Positions 1 through 9,414 of a stretch of 20,995 bases of DNA are shown piece by piece. The notes under the pieces were generated by a model, which saw only the letters and a program-made list of their open reading frames with translations, did not search any database and had not been told where the DNA came from. How positions within the stretch are numbered: the first letter of the stretch is position 1; every line of letters starts with the position of its first letter. The DNA is from a virus. The DNA is taken from IMG/VR virus record IMGVR_UViG_3300031919_000022, positions 1-20,995 of that record; one strand, given 5' to 3'. A program made the position numbers and the translations under genes.

Positions 1-1299
1 TTTAATAAATTCTAATGGCATAACATCTCCTGTTTTTTCAGATAAACAGGTTAGGTCTTCCGCAAAACCTGTATAAATAGGTGCGCAATACCTTGAATTA
101 GTTCTATCATAAGGTTGCATTTGCATCAGTTCTAATTCAGCTAATAACATGAGACGTACTAATTCTTTGAATTGACTAACCATAGTCAAATTTTTAGCTT
201 CAACATGAACATGCAACCCACAAGTAGCATCTACATACCATTCTGCTTTTTCATTTAATACAGAAAAAACTGTACGTAGTTGTCTCAATCCTTCTTCACC
301 TTTAAGTGGTGGTGATACAATCTCTATACCATAAATTTGTGCGTTACAGTCGCGGTTGTGAATACAATCATAGCATTCTTGACCATGAACCTGACATTCT
401 TCACACATTCCATCAAATGGAGCAGAAATACTTCCATCTCCTGTTATTTTCCAACAATCTTTATACGTAGAAAATGTGTCTGTATCTAATATAACTTTAA
501 CTCCTGCTCTTTGTAACATAGTTTCTAATCTACCTGGTGATATACCAATAATTCCTTCTAATTCTACACCAAATTTATAAGTATTAAATATGTTTACATA
601 TGGTATATCTAACTCAGATACTGATTTATTATCAGTTTTTATTTCGCATCTTCCTATATAGGTCGAAGGTGGCATAGCCGCGTATGACCTCGTACTACGT
701 AAACAATGTTCTAACGTATTTATATTTGGTACTGTTATTATTCTTGCTGAGTCATCGCTTTGGTTTTCATCACTCCCACTATTTTCTTCTCTCACATTAA
801 TTTCTTCTCTCACATTAATTTCTTCTCTCACATTAATTTCTTCACCATCCCAATATTCACTATAGGAATCCACCACATATTGTTGACTTTCTTCCCATAT
901 ATTAATATCAACATCACGCTGAAGCAATAAATCTGTCACATAATCTGGAACACCATATTCATGACAGGTAGCATGCGGCATATCTATTTTTTGATGTAAA
1001 ATAGATAGAGAAGACGTTGGACTACGTTTTACTAGTATACCTACACTCCATTGTTTAACATAATATGAACCAGTATTTTTATGTAGTACAAAATCACCTA
1101 TAAGAGCTTCACTTATAGGTTTAATAGGAATTAAATCCTCTGTGAGACGTACTACGTGTACATTTACATTATTATGTATAATAGTACCTTCCACAGGTAC
1201 TGAAATAGTAGGTACTGAAGTATCACGTGGTATTATTCTATCTGGTAAAAATAATTTATAATAATTATTAAATTTTATCGCATATAACTTCATTGTCAT
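1..1299 (-). CDS. Amidoligase-like protein with short Cys-rich insert, partial (C-terminus off window)
   Basis: The 3' end is missing: 431 codons are present counting from ATG 1293, or 433 from ATG 1299. Both ATGs lie just downstream of a tandem SD array and either could be used. Numbered from 1293, residues 1-235 are unrecognised and include a charged linker with INVREE repeated three times (about 153-170). From about residue 241 the pattern fits the amidoligase_2 (COOH-NH2 ligase, glutamine-synthetase-like fold) family: FGVELEG (241-247), GDGSIS (285-290), GIEIVSPPLKG (322-332) and CGLHVHV (358-364). Such enzymes form amide bonds between a carboxylate and an amine using ATP; the substrate here is unknown. 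Cysteines 297, 300, 307, 310 and 316, between GDGSIS and EIVSPP, look like a small zinc-binding insertion. It is the second gene after the related 1353-2390 gene, 53 bases downstream of it, so probably the same mRNA. The family call is fairly secure; the reaction is inference. Confidence 0.75.
   Translation of the reverse strand, partial: MTMKLYAIKFNNYYKLFLPDRIIPRDTSVPTISVPVEGTIIHNNVNVHVVRLTEDLIPIKPISEALIGDFVLHKNTGSYYVKQWSVGILVKRSPTSSLSILHQKIDMPHATCHEYGVPDYVTDLLLQRDVDINIWEESQQYVVDSYSEYWDGEEINVREEINVREEINVREENSGSDENQSDDSARIITVPNINTLEHCLRSTRSYAAMPPSTYIGRCEIKTDNKSVSELDIPYVNIFNTYKFGVELEGIIGISPGRLETMLQRAGVKVILDTDTFSTYKDCWKITGDGSISAPFDGMCEECQVHGQECYDCIHNRDCNAQIYGIEIVSPPLKGEEGLRQLRTVFSVLNEKAEWYVDATCGLHVHVEAKNLTMVSQFKELVRLMLLAELELMQMQPYDRTNSRYCAPIYTGFAEDLTCLSEKTGDVMPLEFIK
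794..843. repeat. 18-bp tandem repeat inside amidoligase-like gene
   Basis: ACATTAATTTCTTCTCTC occurs at 794-811 and 812-829, with a partial third copy at 830-843 and a partial half-unit just before (781-793). On the coding strand it encodes the acidic repeat INVREE. The unit is a multiple of three, so copy-number change would keep the frame and only alter linker length between the N-terminal region and the ligase domain. Confidence 0.85.
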
Positions 1300-4268: not shown

Positions 4269-4301
4269 TTTAATATCTCTCCTTTTTTGTTATTTTTTGG
4301 T

Positions 4302-4371
4302 GTCTCATTAGTGAGACATGTCTCATTTTTAAGACATGTCGCATTTTTAAGACATGTCTCATTAGTGAGAC
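4302..4371. promoter_or_regulatory. Operator cluster upstream of the 250-residue gene
   Basis: The dyad GTCTCATTAGTGAGAC occurs identically at 4302-4317 and 4356-4371. Between them AGACATGTCKCATTTTTA repeats with an 18-base period (4314, 4332, 4350), each unit containing the palindrome GACATGTC. The cluster ends about 34 bases before ATG 4268, so it lies in the 5' untranslated region or over the promoter. The GTCTCA/TGAGAC core recurs many times at 5062-5477, implying one shared binding protein. Confidence 0.65.
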
Positions 4372-4436: not shown

Positions 4437-4654
4437 ACTGTAGCACTGTATTACTGTCGTACTTTCTTACTTTCCTACTTTCTTACTTTAACACTTTCCT
4501 ACTTTCTTACTTTAACACTTTCCTACTTTAACACTTTCCTACTTTAACACTTTCCTACTTTCTTACTTTCTTACTTTCCTACTTTAGCACTTTAACACTT
4601 TAGCACTTTAACACTGTAGTACTGTAACACTTTAACACGGTAAAGCACTGTATT
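4437..4654. repeat. Octamer tandem array (27 units)
   Basis: From 4437 the sequence reads as 25 octamers in perfect phase to 4636, then a 10-base unit and one more octamer. Units are ACTTTCCT, ACTTTCTT, ACTTTAAC and ACTTTAGC, with ACTG variants at both ends. ACTK is fixed apart from ACGG in the 10-base unit, while the second half varies. The period of 8 is not a multiple of three and no SD precedes any frame, so it is not coding. Such short direct repeats occur in origins and partition or replication-protein sites, but no specific role is shown. Confidence 0.85.
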
Positions 4655-4747
4655 TATTTATTTTTTTCCTGTATAAATACTTCGATAGCATGTCCAATTT
4701 TCCTTTTTTCCATACTCAAGTATATTGTATACACATCGACACATTGT

Positions 4748-4889
4748 GACAGTGTGGTTGTCATGCTGTGTTTCAATTCCTCATAGGTAAACTAAAAACT
4801 GTATTTTCATAATCAGACATAGAAATCATCTCCTCGTTTCAATTCCTCATAGGTCAGCTAAAAACTCGACAGTGTGGCTGTCATGCTGT
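4748..4889. repeat. 22-bp direct repeats flanking the mini-CRISPR
   Basis: The segments 4748-4769 and 4868-4889 differ at one base and start GACAGTGTGG. In the right copy GACAG-TGTGG-CTGTC is a perfect hairpin; in the left copy the last pair is G-T. The left copy abuts the first CRISPR repeat and the right copy lies two bases after the second. The order is hairpin, repeat, spacer, repeat, hairpin, so the CRISPR unit is bracketed by a direct duplication. Confidence 0.8.
4770..4865 (-). CRISPR. Phage-borne mini-CRISPR: two 30-bp repeats, one 36-bp spacer
   Basis: Repeats at 4770-4799 and 4836-4865 begin GTTTCAATTCCTCATAGGT and end CTAAAAAC, matching at 28 of 30 positions. The spacer is 4800-4835. 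On the minus strand each repeat ends GGAATTGAAAC, giving the ATTGAAAC 5' handle known for type I-B and some type III crRNAs, so I assign the minus strand as crRNA sense. Repeat and spacer lengths fit those systems. No cas gene is in the window, so any function must rely on host Cas proteins. Possible roles are a guide against a competing phage, or an RNA anti-CRISPR decoy of the kind described for solitary repeat units in phages. The structure is clear; the role is not. Confidence 0.8.
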
Positions 4890-4908
4890 TAAGTAAAAAT
4901 ACTTGACA
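4887..4908 (+). repeat. Exact 22-bp repeat shared with the late promoter, copy 1
   Basis: This segment is identical to 9395-9416 and contains the dyad AAGTA-AAAA-TACTT followed by TTGACA. At 9395 the TTGACA is a promoter -35 box; here no -10 box follows at 16-18 bases. It directly adjoins the right hairpin repeat of the mini-CRISPR. It may be a regulator binding site. Confidence 0.75.
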
Positions 4909-4931
4909 GGGGTGGGGTAGCCAGACCGCGA

Positions 4932-4964
4932 CGCTGTGTCATTGCTTGTTAAGCATACACAGCG
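4932..4964. other. Stable hairpin near the mini-CRISPR
   Basis: CGCTGTGT (4932-4939) pairs perfectly with ACACAGCG (4957-4964), and GCTT/AAGC pair again inside. There is no T run on either side, so it is not an ordinary terminator. The surrounding 4909-4940 stretch is unusually GC-rich for this region. Confidence 0.5.
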
Positions 4965-5119
4965 ATTTCTCACAATTTTTTGTAAAATAGCTTTCCTTTT
5001 TTCCTGCAAGTATTTCCGCACTACACTTTTCAACAGGGAGAAGGATTTTAAGACATTCCATTGAGACATTTGAGACATTTGTGACATTCTTAAATTAGAA
5101 ATGTCTCAACAAATGTCAC

Positions 5120-5152
5120 AAAAAAAATCCCTCAACCATGCGGGTTAGAAGG
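5120..5152 (-). terminator. Possible terminator, leftward
   Basis: The stem 5129-5152 (CCCTCAACC paired with GGTTAGAAGG) has one bulge and one mismatch and is followed on the minus strand by eight T (A run 5120-5127). It resembles the better terminator at 5383-5423. Confidence 0.45.
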
Positions 5153-5156
5153 TCGC

Positions 5157-5308
5157 TGAGACAAAAGTGACATTTATTTTTATAAAAAACATATATTATA
5201 TAAGGCGTACACACACAAATAATTTTTAATCTTTCCCTGTTATTTTTGTGTGTGTATGTCCTCTTAGGATTTAATATATATCTCTAAAATTATGTCACTT
5301 TTGTCTCA
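5157..5308. other. Nested inverted repeat, candidate replication origin
   Basis: The outer arms TGAGACAAAAGTGACAT (5157-5173) and its exact complement (5292-5308) are 17 bp without mismatch. The inner arms TACACACACAAATAA (5208-5222) and TTATTTTTGTGTGTGTA (5240-5256) pair with two extra T. AT-only stretches with ATATATTA/TAATATAT lie between. The 152-bp near-symmetrical layout, flanking binding-site repeats, AT-rich core and lack of genes fit an origin. A centromere-like or regulatory site is possible. Confidence 0.5.
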
Positions 5309-5382
5309 AAGACCCCTCAGCCCAGTCACAGCAAGGGTTTCAGTGAGACATTCCAGATTTTGACAATGTCACAAAGAAAATC

Positions 5383-5423
5383 AAAAAAAACCCTCTAACC
5401 CAAGCTGGGCAAGGGCTAGAGGG
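5383..5423 (-). terminator. Intrinsic terminator of the replication operon
   Basis: CCCTCTAGCCC and GGGTTAGAGGG (5423-5413, 5401-5391) form an 11-bp stem with one G-U pair, followed by eight T on the minus strand (A run 5383-5390). It is the first strong terminator after the last leftward gene (stop 5571). Confidence 0.85.
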
Positions 5424-5570
5424 CTGTGACAAAATGTTTTAAGAAATGTCACAAAAAAATGTCACAAAAATGTCTCACACATAGGAAATATTATTAAACA
5501 TCACAGTATTTTATCAAATACGGACTTTTCGACATTTCTGTCGGAAAGTACAGAATATATAAAGAGTATT

Positions 5571-5729: not shown

Positions 5730-5928
5730 TATTACACCCCTCCTTTTTTAGGGGACACTGCTCATTTTTAAATATTGTTACACACCATGAATCTTCATAT
5801 TTGCGTACGTGATATTCAATCCCACAGAATAACAGTGAAGTTGTTAAATCTTCAACCTTAGTCCTTTTATTAAGTCAAACTTTTACATAATCTAAACACA
5901 TTACACATTCCTCCTTAACAGTAATCAT
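5719..5928 (-). pseudogene. Small Cys-containing gene interrupted by in-frame TGA
   Basis: From ATG 5928, which overlaps the previous stop as ATGA, the frame reads MITVKEECVMCLDYVKV and then TGA (5877-5875). It continues open in the same frame as LNKRTKVEDL...CGIEYHVRKY to TAA at 5721-5719, 69 residues if the TGA is ignored. The second part has no start codon or SD of its own yet looks like protein and reaches the next gene. TGA serves as an ordinary stop elsewhere here (for example 5927-5925 and 9412-9414), so general recoding is unlikely. It could be a nonsense mutation, a programmed readthrough (context TGA CTT), a sequencing error, or a 17-residue peptide followed by chance open frame. 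No function is recognised. Confidence 0.45.
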
Positions 5929-6041
5929 TTTTTCTCCTCCCATCTGCAACACCAAGTATCAATAGTCACCTTCTGTTTAAACATACACTCAATAAAGTAT
6001 TTGCAGTTCCCACATCTTTGTTCTTTCTTTGGTATTCTCAT
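5925..6041 (-). CDS. Cysteine-rich small protein, 38 residues
   Basis: The frame starts at ATG 6041 with AAGGAGGAG 7 bases upstream. That SD overlaps the stop of the primase-helicase gene. The product MRIPKKEQRCGNCKYFIECM... has CGNC (10-13), C19 and CC (31-32), a spacing compatible with binding one zinc ion. Its TGA overlaps the next ATG (ATGA), the classic sign of coupled translation. It is a member of the leftward replication operon; the role is unknown. It is short, but the SD, overlaps and cysteine pattern make it believable. Confidence 0.65.
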   Translation of the reverse strand: MRIPKKEQRCGNCKYFIECMFKQKVTIDTWCCRWEEKK

Positions 6042-6054
6042 AAGTATCTCCTCC

Positions 6055-8862
6055 TTAAAATTCTAAGGTATCATCATCATTAGCAGCACAGATTTCCTGT
6101 AAATCATCATTATTGATAGCCCTATAATTGAGCATTAGACAACGAAGTTGATTGCCTGTTGACTGTAAACGTGCCCTGACGTTGTTCTTTACGAAGAAGG
6201 GTTCTTTCTTTATGTAATCCAGAAGCACAGTACGTTTAATATCAGCATCAGGATAGTTTTTAACCCATGTATCATATACACCTTTAAACCATAGTAATAT
6301 TGTGTTGTTTTCAATCTTATAATGTTTACCATTGAGTAATTTACCATCTAACATTAGTACAGTCATGTCAGAGAAAAACTTTGACACTGTGTGGTCGCTT
6401 TCAGTTATTTCTTTAGTTTCTGTAGCTTTGCTACTTAACCAGTTAATAAAATCTAACTTATCTTTCTCTGTTAAAACATGCTCGAACTCGTGGAGAAATG
6501 CTCCTGCAAACACAGATACGTTTTTAGCAAGACGTCCATCTATGTCTTGTGACATTAATCTGTCTTGTATGTAATCTATTTTAGCTAATAACTTCTCTGA
6601 ACCTTCACGTTGTTTCTTAGTAGCGAAGTGTAACCCTAAAGATGGAAAGTGTTGAACTAGGTCGAGCATATGTGTTAATGCGTTGTTGTCCCTCTCGTAT
6701 GCAGAAATTTGAATATTACAGCAACGCGAAAATACAGCGTTATTATCAGGAGTATCCTCTCCACTAAGTAGTAAAAACCCTCTGATTTTTTCTGCTCTAA
6801 CACCAAAACCTGACTTAATACCTTTATCAGCACCTTGCCTGTTATACGCACCGAGCAAAAATTCATCGCGGTGTTTAATATCTTTAAGATTGTTTTTATA
6901 ATCGTCATACCACAGCGGTAACGAGGAATAGTACCCTAATTTTCTGGTCATACTAACTATAGAGGGCATGGCGAAGTTCTTACCATCTATATGTGGAAAC
7001 CCGTAAGCAGACATTAACCACCGGGCAAGGTAGGTCTTTCCGCTATTACGTTTACCATTTATAAAGAAGATAGGAAACGATTTATCGCCTTTATGATTGT
7101 AGATTGCGTTACTGTGCCATCCAGCCACTATAAAACCTAGTGAAAGCCATGCATTAAATGTACCTAAGTTGGTTTTCAATGTGTAAGCAACATCTTTTAA
7201 ATAATCATCAGTTATTTCTTCAATTACGTCTGGTTTGGTTGGCATGTATGTCTCATCATTATCATCTACAATGTTAAGATTACGTACCATGTAGCTCTTA
7301 TCATCTAAAGTGATAATGTTATTATCATCGCAAGTTATAATCTGCCCTTTATTATCTATACCATAACGTCCCATTATCCAAATATCGTTTACTTGTCCTA
7401 TGTGGTCAGGTGAGTGAACGATATTTTCTTCTTGTTTAAGTAGAATTTCGTTAAGTGCTATTAGGTCTTTAAAATCACCTTTGAATATATAGTTACCTGC
7501 TTTTTTACACTCAGCCATGAAATCCATAGGCCTAGTAAGTGTCTCTGCTGTGAAAATAACTTGCCTACTGATTTGCCCCCGTTCATTTTCTAATTTACAT
7601 ATTCTAACATGATTACCATCAGCTTCAATAGTATGGAGTAGATGAATAACAAAATTAGAAATACAGACTTCTGCGATACCTTCATTAGTATGAACTGTTT
7701 TATAATAACATTTGTTCTTCTGGTATATATCAGCGTCAGCATCATTTTTTTCTTGATTACACTGGTTATATCTCTTATATGCGTTATTATATGCTTTAGT
7801 TATTATAGTTTTACTTATTTTAAGGCTAGCTTTTAGTGTGTCTACGAAAAGCATAATCTTAACTTCATCCTGTAAAGCTAAGAATGTGTAATACCATGCA
7901 TCATATTTACTAAGTATATCAGGTGTTTCTTTAGCTGTTGCTATAAAGGTTTTAGGTGTTGCAGGAATATAGGTTTGTGTGGTAAAATATTTATATAGAA
8001 CTTCCTTATTTCCTCCACAATTATACATATAATAATCACTAACATCATTAAATCTTGTAGGTAAAGATATAGTATATAATTTATCTGGAAACGTAGCTGC
8101 AATTGTTTTTAAAAGTTTTAGCCCTGCTTTATCTTGGTCAGGAACAGCTATTATTTTATTAAATTTAGTAAGTAAATTACCTAAATTTTCTGTACTGGTT
8201 TCCCATGCAGTAGCTCCGGGGACACCAATAGCTTGTAATCCGGCTTGTATAGCAGTTAAAGCATCTGTTTCACCTTCAAATATATAAAGATAATCATTAT
8301 TATAATTTTTAAGGAGGTCTAAACCATATATGGTATTACTACCTTCCGTAAATGTATATTTATTAGTACCTTCAAATTTAAGACGTTTTTTAACAGCTAA
8401 TATATCCCCATCTGCTCCGTAAAATGGTATAACAACACCTTTAATAATTTCACCATTTCGCACGTGTTTATGATTATCTATACCACGTGATTTTAAAAAT
8501 TCTATATCGAAACCTTTAAATTCAGCAAAATTTTCTAATGTAACAATGTTAGGGTATTCTAACTTAAAAATTTTTCTAATATCTTTAACAGCGTTCTCTA
8601 TACTATCGAATAACCCCATCTCTACTAGTAATTTAGGTGCAGTACCACCTATACCACATGCACCATAACAAACCCAATCCCACCCTTGTCCTTTGGAGGT
8701 TTTGTCATAGATTGCTAAACTAGTACCTTTAGTTTCTTTATGAATGGGGCACTTAGTTAAATAGACGTATTTGCCTTGTTTTATAAAGTCATTATCGTTA
8801 TAGTTTAGGTAATATTTCATTACGTCTATTAGTGATAAATTGTTTATTAGCAATCGTGACAT
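6055..8862 (-). CDS. Primase-helicase (zinc-binding, Toprim and P-loop ATPase)
   Basis: This 935-residue protein probably makes RNA primers and unwinds DNA at the phage fork. The start at ATG 8862 has AAGGAGG 8 bases upstream. Domain order: a DnaG/gp4-type zinc-binding region with CPIH (38-41) and C65, C69; a Toprim domain with EGETD (196-200) and DQDKAG (242-247), whose acidic residues bind metal; a long middle region I cannot assign; then a P-loop ATPase with GKRNSGKT (603-610), a Walker-B-like LPLWYDDY (648-655) and LLLSGEDTP (697-705). The ATPase looks more like the superfamily 3/AAA+ type of phage and plasmid primase-helicases than the hexameric DnaB type, but I am unsure of that. It is the second gene of the leftward operon, 3 bases after the ribbon-helix-helix-like gene. 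Confidence 0.88.
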   Translation of the reverse strand: MSRLLINNLSLIDVMKYYLNYNDNDFIKQGKYVYLTKCPIHKETKGTSLAIYDKTSKGQGWDWVCYGACGIGGTAPKLLVEMGLFDSIENAVKDIRKIFKLEYPNIVTLENFAEFKGFDIEFLKSRGIDNHKHVRNGEIIKGVVIPFYGADGDILAVKKRLKFEGTNKYTFTEGSNTIYGLDLLKNYNNDYLYIFEGETDALTAIQAGLQAIGVPGATAWETSTENLGNLLTKFNKIIAVPDQDKAGLKLLKTIAATFPDKLYTISLPTRFNDVSDYYMYNCGGNKEVLYKYFTTQTYIPATPKTFIATAKETPDILSKYDAWYYTFLALQDEVKIMLFVDTLKASLKISKTIITKAYNNAYKRYNQCNQEKNDADADIYQKNKCYYKTVHTNEGIAEVCISNFVIHLLHTIEADGNHVRICKLENERGQISRQVIFTAETLTRPMDFMAECKKAGNYIFKGDFKDLIALNEILLKQEENIVHSPDHIGQVNDIWIMGRYGIDNKGQIITCDDNNIITLDDKSYMVRNLNIVDDNDETYMPTKPDVIEEITDDYLKDVAYTLKTNLGTFNAWLSLGFIVAGWHSNAIYNHKGDKSFPIFFINGKRNSGKTYLARWLMSAYGFPHIDGKNFAMPSIVSMTRKLGYYSSLPLWYDDYKNNLKDIKHRDEFLLGAYNRQGADKGIKSGFGVRAEKIRGFLLLSGEDTPDNNAVFSRCCNIQISAYERDNNALTHMLDLVQHFPSLGLHFATKKQREGSEKLLAKIDYIQDRLMSQDIDGRLAKNVSVFAGAFLHEFEHVLTEKDKLDFINWLSSKATETKEITESDHTVSKFFSDMTVLMLDGKLLNGKHYKIENNTILLWFKGVYDTWVKNYPDADIKRTVLLDYIKKEPFFVKNNVRARLQSTGNQLRCLMLNYRAINNDDLQEICAANDDDTLEF

Positions 8863-9126: not shown

Positions 9127-9414
9127 ATGTCCAAAAATTTTTATTTAAGGATTTATAAGGATGATGAGCCTGTAAATCGTAATCAATTTATGAAGCACCG
9201 TAAGGTTTTTGTGCAATTTAATCCTAAATTTTTAGAAAAAATTGTCATTGATGAAATGATTAAAAAGTTACCTTTAAAATTCAGACAAGTTATAATTTTA
9301 CATGTTATTAAAGGTTATCCAGTTAAACAAATAGCTAAATATTTAGAAGTTCACAGAAGCACAGTGCATCGGAGATTAATAAAAGCATTAGATATGTTAA
9401 GTAAAAATACTTGA
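9127..9414 (+). CDS. Sigma region 4-like helix-turn-helix regulator, 95 residues
   Basis: The C-terminal half, from KLPLKFRQVIILHVIKGYPV through KQIAKYLEVHRSTVHRRLIK (about 47-86), matches sigma-70 region 4 and related activators: a leucine-proline start, an R-x-V-hydrophobic helix, then the helix-turn-helix with recognition helix HRSTVHRRL. The N-terminal 45 residues are unrecognised and no region 2 is present, so it is not a complete sigma factor. It is the first rightward gene and its stop codon overlaps the -35 box of the promoter that serves the packaging and structural genes. By analogy with small phage late activators of the ArpU/RinA kind, it may switch on late transcription; that is inference from position and fold. 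GGGAG lies 11 bases before the ATG. Confidence 0.7.
   Translation: MSKNFYLRIYKDDEPVNRNQFMKHRKVFVQFNPKFLEKIVIDEMIKKLPLKFRQVIILHVIKGYPVKQIAKYLEVHRSTVHRRLIKALDMLSKNT

Follow-up and report, generated by a model that had tools for sequence, protein, structure and literature searches.

Virus-borne CRISPR arrays of one or two spacers that turn the immune enzymes of the host on a competitor have been documented in archaeal viruses (PMC6858448). The mini-arrays of SPV1 and SPV2 (Medvedeva et al. 2019, PMC6858448) carry one to two spacers between host-type repeats and are located in intergenic regions of viruses free of cas genes. In Clostridia, C. difficile phages and prophages are reported to carry arrays that are expressed and processed and whose spacers match other phages (PMC4524475). 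Two other classes of elements also resemble isolated CRISPR units. RNA anti-CRISPRs (Racr) and solitary repeat units mimic host repeats in viral intergenic regions (Camara-Wilpert et al. 2023, PMC10651486), whereas CreR and CreA guides, in which one guide is placed between degenerate repeats, act in a Cascade-dependent manner (PMC12737573).

Here we analysed a CRISPR-like locus in a 20,995-bp phage contig (IMG/VR record IMGVR_UViG_3300031919_000022), the whole of which is called the window below. The locus shares spacer number, intergenic position and the cas-free setting with the SPV1 and SPV2 arrays, but these have host-like leaders and known targets in sister viruses (PMC6858448), whereas here there is no leader, the target was not found and the repeats have diverged. 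According to a review, mini-array repeats are identical to those of the host, while those studied here have no exact match among the host repeats scanned and are one substitution away from the host variant AAGC. The C. difficile arrays, to which the locus is likened by description and not by sequence, have known hosts and reported expression and processing (PMC4524475). It differs from Racr and solitary repeat units by two full repeats, a spacer and an intact 5′ handle (PMC10651486), and from CreR and CreA by a position away from any cas operon and by the lack of a promoter match in the searches made (PMC12737573).

Results

Structure of the CRISPR unit

Two 30-bp repeats, identical at 28/30 positions, enclose a single 36-bp spacer, and this repeat–spacer–repeat unit lies between two 22-bp sequences in direct orientation that agree at 21/22 positions (Table 1). 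Both repeats exceeded the gathering threshold of 37 bits of the Rfam model CRISPR-DR2 (E 4e-6 and 1e-5), which confirms the CRISPR unit of the original prediction. The arrangement of two repeats and one spacer is not due to chance. No further match to the repeat was detected across the contig. The only differences between the repeats, at positions 20 and 22, map to the internal loop that the Rfam model leaves unpaired; the stem and the 8-nt handle are unbroken in both. Full-length repeats on either side of one spacer are thus present, as in a mini-array.

Repeats of types I-B and III have a characteristic handle and start. The 8-nt handle ATTGAAAC and the start GTTTTTA accordingly indicate that the predicted crRNA is encoded by the minus strand, which is also the direction of the neighbouring primase gene and of a 250-aa ORF.

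Table 1 Features of the CRISPR unit and its borders in the window
Feature	Position	Strand	Remarks
Phage-native block, left border of array site	4664..4749	no strand	Matches L097 260-342 and L103 86-129
22-bp direct flank, copy 1	4748..4769	no strand	Abuts repeat; imperfect dyad; overlaps weak minus-strand −35-like hexamer
CRISPR repeat	4770..4799	minus	GTTTTTAGTTTACCTATGAGGAATTGAAAC, read in the window as GTTTCAATTCCTCATAGGTAAACTAAAAAC; 3′ repeat on crRNA strand; CRISPR-DR2 45.2 bits
Spacer, single, 36 bp	4800..4835	minus	crRNA sense GAGGAGATGATTTCTATGTCTGATTATGAAAATACA
CRISPR repeat	4836..4865	minus	GTTTTTAGCTGACCTATGAGGAATTGAAAC, read in the window as GTTTCAATTCCTCATAGGTCAGCTAAAAAC; 5′ repeat on crRNA strand, gives ATTGAAAC handle; CRISPR-DR2 43.2 bits
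22-bp direct flank, copy 2	4868..4889	no strand	2 bp away from repeat
Phage-native block, right border of array site	4891..5233	no strand	L103 218-559, 70.7%

Host repeat family

The 26 bases common to both phage repeats were used to scan 84,980 species genomes. This core was found in 89 chromosomal stretches, mostly of Clostridia and Bacilli, the remainder including some Hydrogenothermaceae, Leptospiraceae and magnetotactic bacteria. A chromosomal repeat family, the absence of which would have spoken against the original prediction, therefore exists, although the exact phage repeats occur in none of the stretches. The proposed origin in Clostridia or Negativicutes was right as to Clostridia, whereas no Negativicutes were among the matches. 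Among the neighbouring genes tested, those of type I-B were found at L045 (cas6, cas8b, cas7, cas5, cas3) and L086 (cas7, cas5, cas3), and those of types III-A/III-D at L005, L012 and L080. The spacers in these host arrays have a modal length of 36 bp, equal to that of the phage spacer.

Repeat positions 20–23 are variable among the hosts. The phage variants AAAC and CAGC were not detected among approximately 1,490 exact-core host repeats, while AAGC, which is one substitution away from each phage repeat, occurs in six genomes; of the four combinations that could be ancestral, hosts show this one alone. At L045, the AAGC array adjoins the type I-B operon. The simplest history that we infer from these variants is that the phage acquired one AAGC unit and that one substitution then arose in each copy. 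Of the 60 repeat bases, 2 carry a substitution relative to this putative ancestor, and both substitutions lie in the internal loop. One of them, A20C in the 5′ repeat, affects a position at which every exact-core host variant has A, and could weaken Cas6 recognition of this repeat.

L045 contains another element as well. On its minus strand at 507-593 (plus strand ~7408-7494), two degenerate repeats, each matching at 19/30 positions, surround a 27-bp spacer, and this element is a candidate CreR. Neither the terminase nor the amidoligase identified the host of the phage. Comparison of the host spacers with the window and the related phages gave longest matches of 16–20 bp, which is about the level of chance.

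Spacer and search for its target

On the crRNA strand, the spacer contains GAGGAG, 9 nt and then ATG TCT GAT TAT GAA AAT ACA (MSDYENT). Its likeness to a gene start with a ribosome-binding site and a start codon is suggestive only: 56 of 1,633 host spacers (3.4%) were gene-start-like on either strand, compared to 26 after shuffling. If the likeness is real, the guide would correspond to the sense strand of the gene, which would fit type I DNA targeting better than type III mRNA targeting. A protospacer was not found in the window and the fetched loci, in viral contigs (two patterns), phages, plasmids and 16 viral records, or in 28 host genomes with the cognate repeat and 391 Clostridia genomes. 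The best spacer match, 28/36 in L095, was rejected, since it had been picked by the search pattern itself and has a poor 5′ seed.

Flanking repeats, promoter and leader

The 22-bp flanks were originally described as hairpin-forming direct repeats which might trim or protect the RNA. The direct repeats are real, but each copy can form only an imperfect stem of 5–9 bp, and the folded unit as a whole is not more stable than shuffled sequences (z +0.21 and −0.64 on the two strands), which leaves the hairpin character weak. The suggested role in RNA trimming or protection gained no support. A terminator-like call on the flank was discounted because the U-run is the repeat itself. The 22-bp sequence was not found in other viral contigs, and the 22 host genomes searched contained a single match with 2 mismatches. 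The flanks may be a duplication formed on the arrival of the unit (an insertion footprint), phage regulatory repeats like others in the region, or overlapping remains of two spacers from a host array. Removal of either 120 bp or ~98 bp gives a length near that of the relative L103, so this comparison does not decide whether the 22-bp duplication or the unit came first.

Just upstream of the unit, the minus strand showed no identifiable promoter. The minus-strand promoter-like site to which the hexamer overlapped by copy 1 belongs has a −10 region (TATACAAT) that is also present in L097. A host-like leader, which is a typical but not obligatory feature of mini-arrays, is absent: host leader-side sequences of this repeat family often start with CCATC or similar (in the orientation of the phage unit), and the phage flank showed no similarity to them. 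The right flank is homologous to sequences of array-less relatives and is not a host CRISPR leader. Acquisition of new spacers at the unit would be unlikely, because there is no host leader and the right flank is phage-native. The absence of a leader bears on spacer acquisition and not on guide production.

Phage genome and related phages

The window encodes the small and large terminase, portal, major head and tail proteins, a primase (6055-8862, minus) and a sigma-factor-like protein (9127-9414). At 1-2405, two amidoligase_2 genes lie side by side, the second with a DnaJ/anti-TRAP-like cysteine stretch. The most complete relative is a record of 42,148 bp, and the window is therefore probably a partial genome, approximately half of the whole. 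As originally stated, no cas genes accompany the unit: none was found among the scanned proteins of this incomplete contig. The unit is located in a long non-coding stretch (4269 to ~6054) that contains only short ORFs and is flanked by two minus-strand genes. An intergenic site in a viral genome with no cas genes found nearby, in a contig that is incomplete, is the setting of a mini-array.

Relatives were found by a terminase search (L097–L101) and by alignment (L103, L104), whereas the portal protein as query retrieved none. L103 and L097 have the conserved block to the left of the unit as well as that to its right, and L098 and L099 retain the right-hand motif. No repeat-like sequence was detected in L097, L098, L099 or L103, and for this reason the array, absent from four relatives with a syntenic intergenic region, is a lineage-specific gain.

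Several other repeated elements were observed in this region. More than 20 tandem 8-bp units (ACTTTCCT / ACTTTAAC / ACTTTCTT) occupy 4437-4650, and similar TTTAACGCTTTAACAC-type repeats are found at the matching place in L098 and L099, which suggests a putative iteron-like region. Palindromes of the TGTCTCATTAGTGAGACATG type, which recur every 18 bp at 4301-4371 immediately upstream of the 250-aa minus-strand ORF, resemble operators. Dense short repeats (GAGACATTTGTGACATT type) at 5040-5520 have equivalents in L103 (390-900) and L097 (660-1240, TTGTAACTT type), each phage having its own version at a constant position. In this otherwise fast-changing intergenic region, AGCGATTTCTCACAATTTTTT (4961-4981) is nearly invariant in five related phages (L098 371, L099 369, L103 284, L097 ~603, with small differences in L097 and L098) and is possibly a replication or transcription signal.

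Repeats of the same family in other viral contigs

A relaxed repeat pattern gave 14 stretches in IMG/VR. The contig L110 (IMGVR_UViG_3300005962_000016; 46.9 kb) contains, in the region 5925-6985, a repeat–spacer–repeat unit with a truncated repeat of the same superfamily and, ~0.9 kb away, an extra solitary repeat, but it has its own repeat variant (ending in TACAAAC) and unrelated flanks. Single full-pattern repeats were found in L113, L117 and L120. On the basis of the L110 array and the further IMG/VR viral contigs with this repeat family, its mini-arrays recur in viral contigs, although cases at contig ends need care. In L003 (1-230), the spacer continues into a phage gene; this is likely an assembly chimera and shows a real spacer–protospacer pair from one metagenome.

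Discussion

We consider the locus to be a phage-borne mini-CRISPR array, the crRNA of which would be made by host Cas6/Cascade and directed against a competing element, and give this reading a probability of roughly one half. It is the best reading because the unit has all that is needed for one normal crRNA made by host enzymes. The minus strand would be transcribed during infection and a host Cas6 of the type I-B family would cut both repeats, giving one crRNA composed of ATTGAAAC, the 36-nt spacer and the stem of the 3′ repeat. The host effector loaded with this crRNA would attack DNA containing a matching protospacer; the target would most likely be a gene start in a rival phage or plasmid, and the outcome would be superinfection exclusion through borrowed host enzymes. 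Our searches found no protospacer, no exact host repeat, no near minus-strand promoter and no leader, which counts against this function, as does the change at a host-invariant position in the 5′ repeat. Of the two precedents invoked in the original prediction, the virus-borne mini-array is well supported by the chromosomal repeat family, the canonical geometry, the intergenic site and the four array-less relatives, whereas the solitary repeat unit is not: its published definition leaves out paired repeats within 100 bp (PMC10651486), and the second repeat is less than 100 bp away.

The same definition weakens the rather unlikely proposal that the transcript is a Racr-like decoy which occupies host Cas6/Cas7 or loads Cascade with a harmless guide and so shields the phage. 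In its favour, Racrs occur widely in IMG/VR (PMC10651486), the phage repeats imitate that of the host apart from minor departures, one of them at a host-invariant position, and the target of the spacer was not found in the searches made; but RacrIF1 acts through a missing 5′ handle (PMC10651486), while two full repeats with an unbroken 5′ handle would yield a normal crRNA. The departures in the repeats could also be those of an inert relic, a captured piece of a host array drifting neutrally within a repeat-rich intergenic region. The two repeats differ from one another as well as from every known host repeat, two or more differences between adjacent interior repeats are seen in just 20/1370 host pairs, and the unit has no leader and is missing from four relatives. 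Nevertheless, the only 2 substitutions in the 60 repeat bases are confined to the internal loop and the spacer length is retained, which makes this explanation quite unlikely. Similarly improbable, if anything slightly more so, is a CreR-like repressor, the crRNA of which would pair partly with the promoter of the cas operon or another host gene and repress it via Cascade. CreRs have been reported for type I-B, in the AAGC locus L045 two degenerate, creR-like repeats lie directly upstream of cas6, and the spacer resembles a ribosome-binding site with a start codon. On the other hand, the spacer seed has no match in the region upstream of this cas6, the 27-bp creR-like spacer of L045 is unrelated, and a full 36-bp spacer is unnecessary for repression.

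Two further explanations concern the way in which the unit came to stand between phage sequences, and both seem to us highly improbable. Reads of a host array could have been joined to phage reads during assembly via spacers copied from this phage, the shared k-mers being the 22-bp flanks. Phage-like sequence flanks the unit on either side, in several viral contigs the arrays of this family stand at a contig end, and L003 runs seamlessly from spacer into phage gene like a chimera. However, the unit studied here is in the contig interior with both borders conserved in relatives, two chimeric joins would be needed within 22 bp, the 2 bp next to copy 2 mismatch the other flank, no match to the site was seen among the host spacers screened and, unlike neighbours in host arrays, the two repeats differ. 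Alternatively, the unit may have been gained by recombination between phage protospacers and two matching spacers of a host array, the flanks being the overlap of those spacers. If this is true, recombination at matching spacers would be a route for phages to capture CRISPR units, and the host repeat would occupy the former place of the protospacer-adjacent motif of the phage.

As a mini-array, the locus is probably a known but rarely seen case of a phage turning host immune enzymes on a competitor. The well-characterised examples of phage-borne mini-arrays come mainly from archaeal viruses, whereas the present one-spacer unit belongs to a bacterial phage and derives from a type I-B-associated repeat. 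Its one-step drift from AAGC points to bacteria with this variant, e.g. those behind L045, L050, L031 and L068, as candidate hosts. Since relatives keep the locus without the unit, its gain and its function could both be tested by comparing phages that have it with phages that do not.
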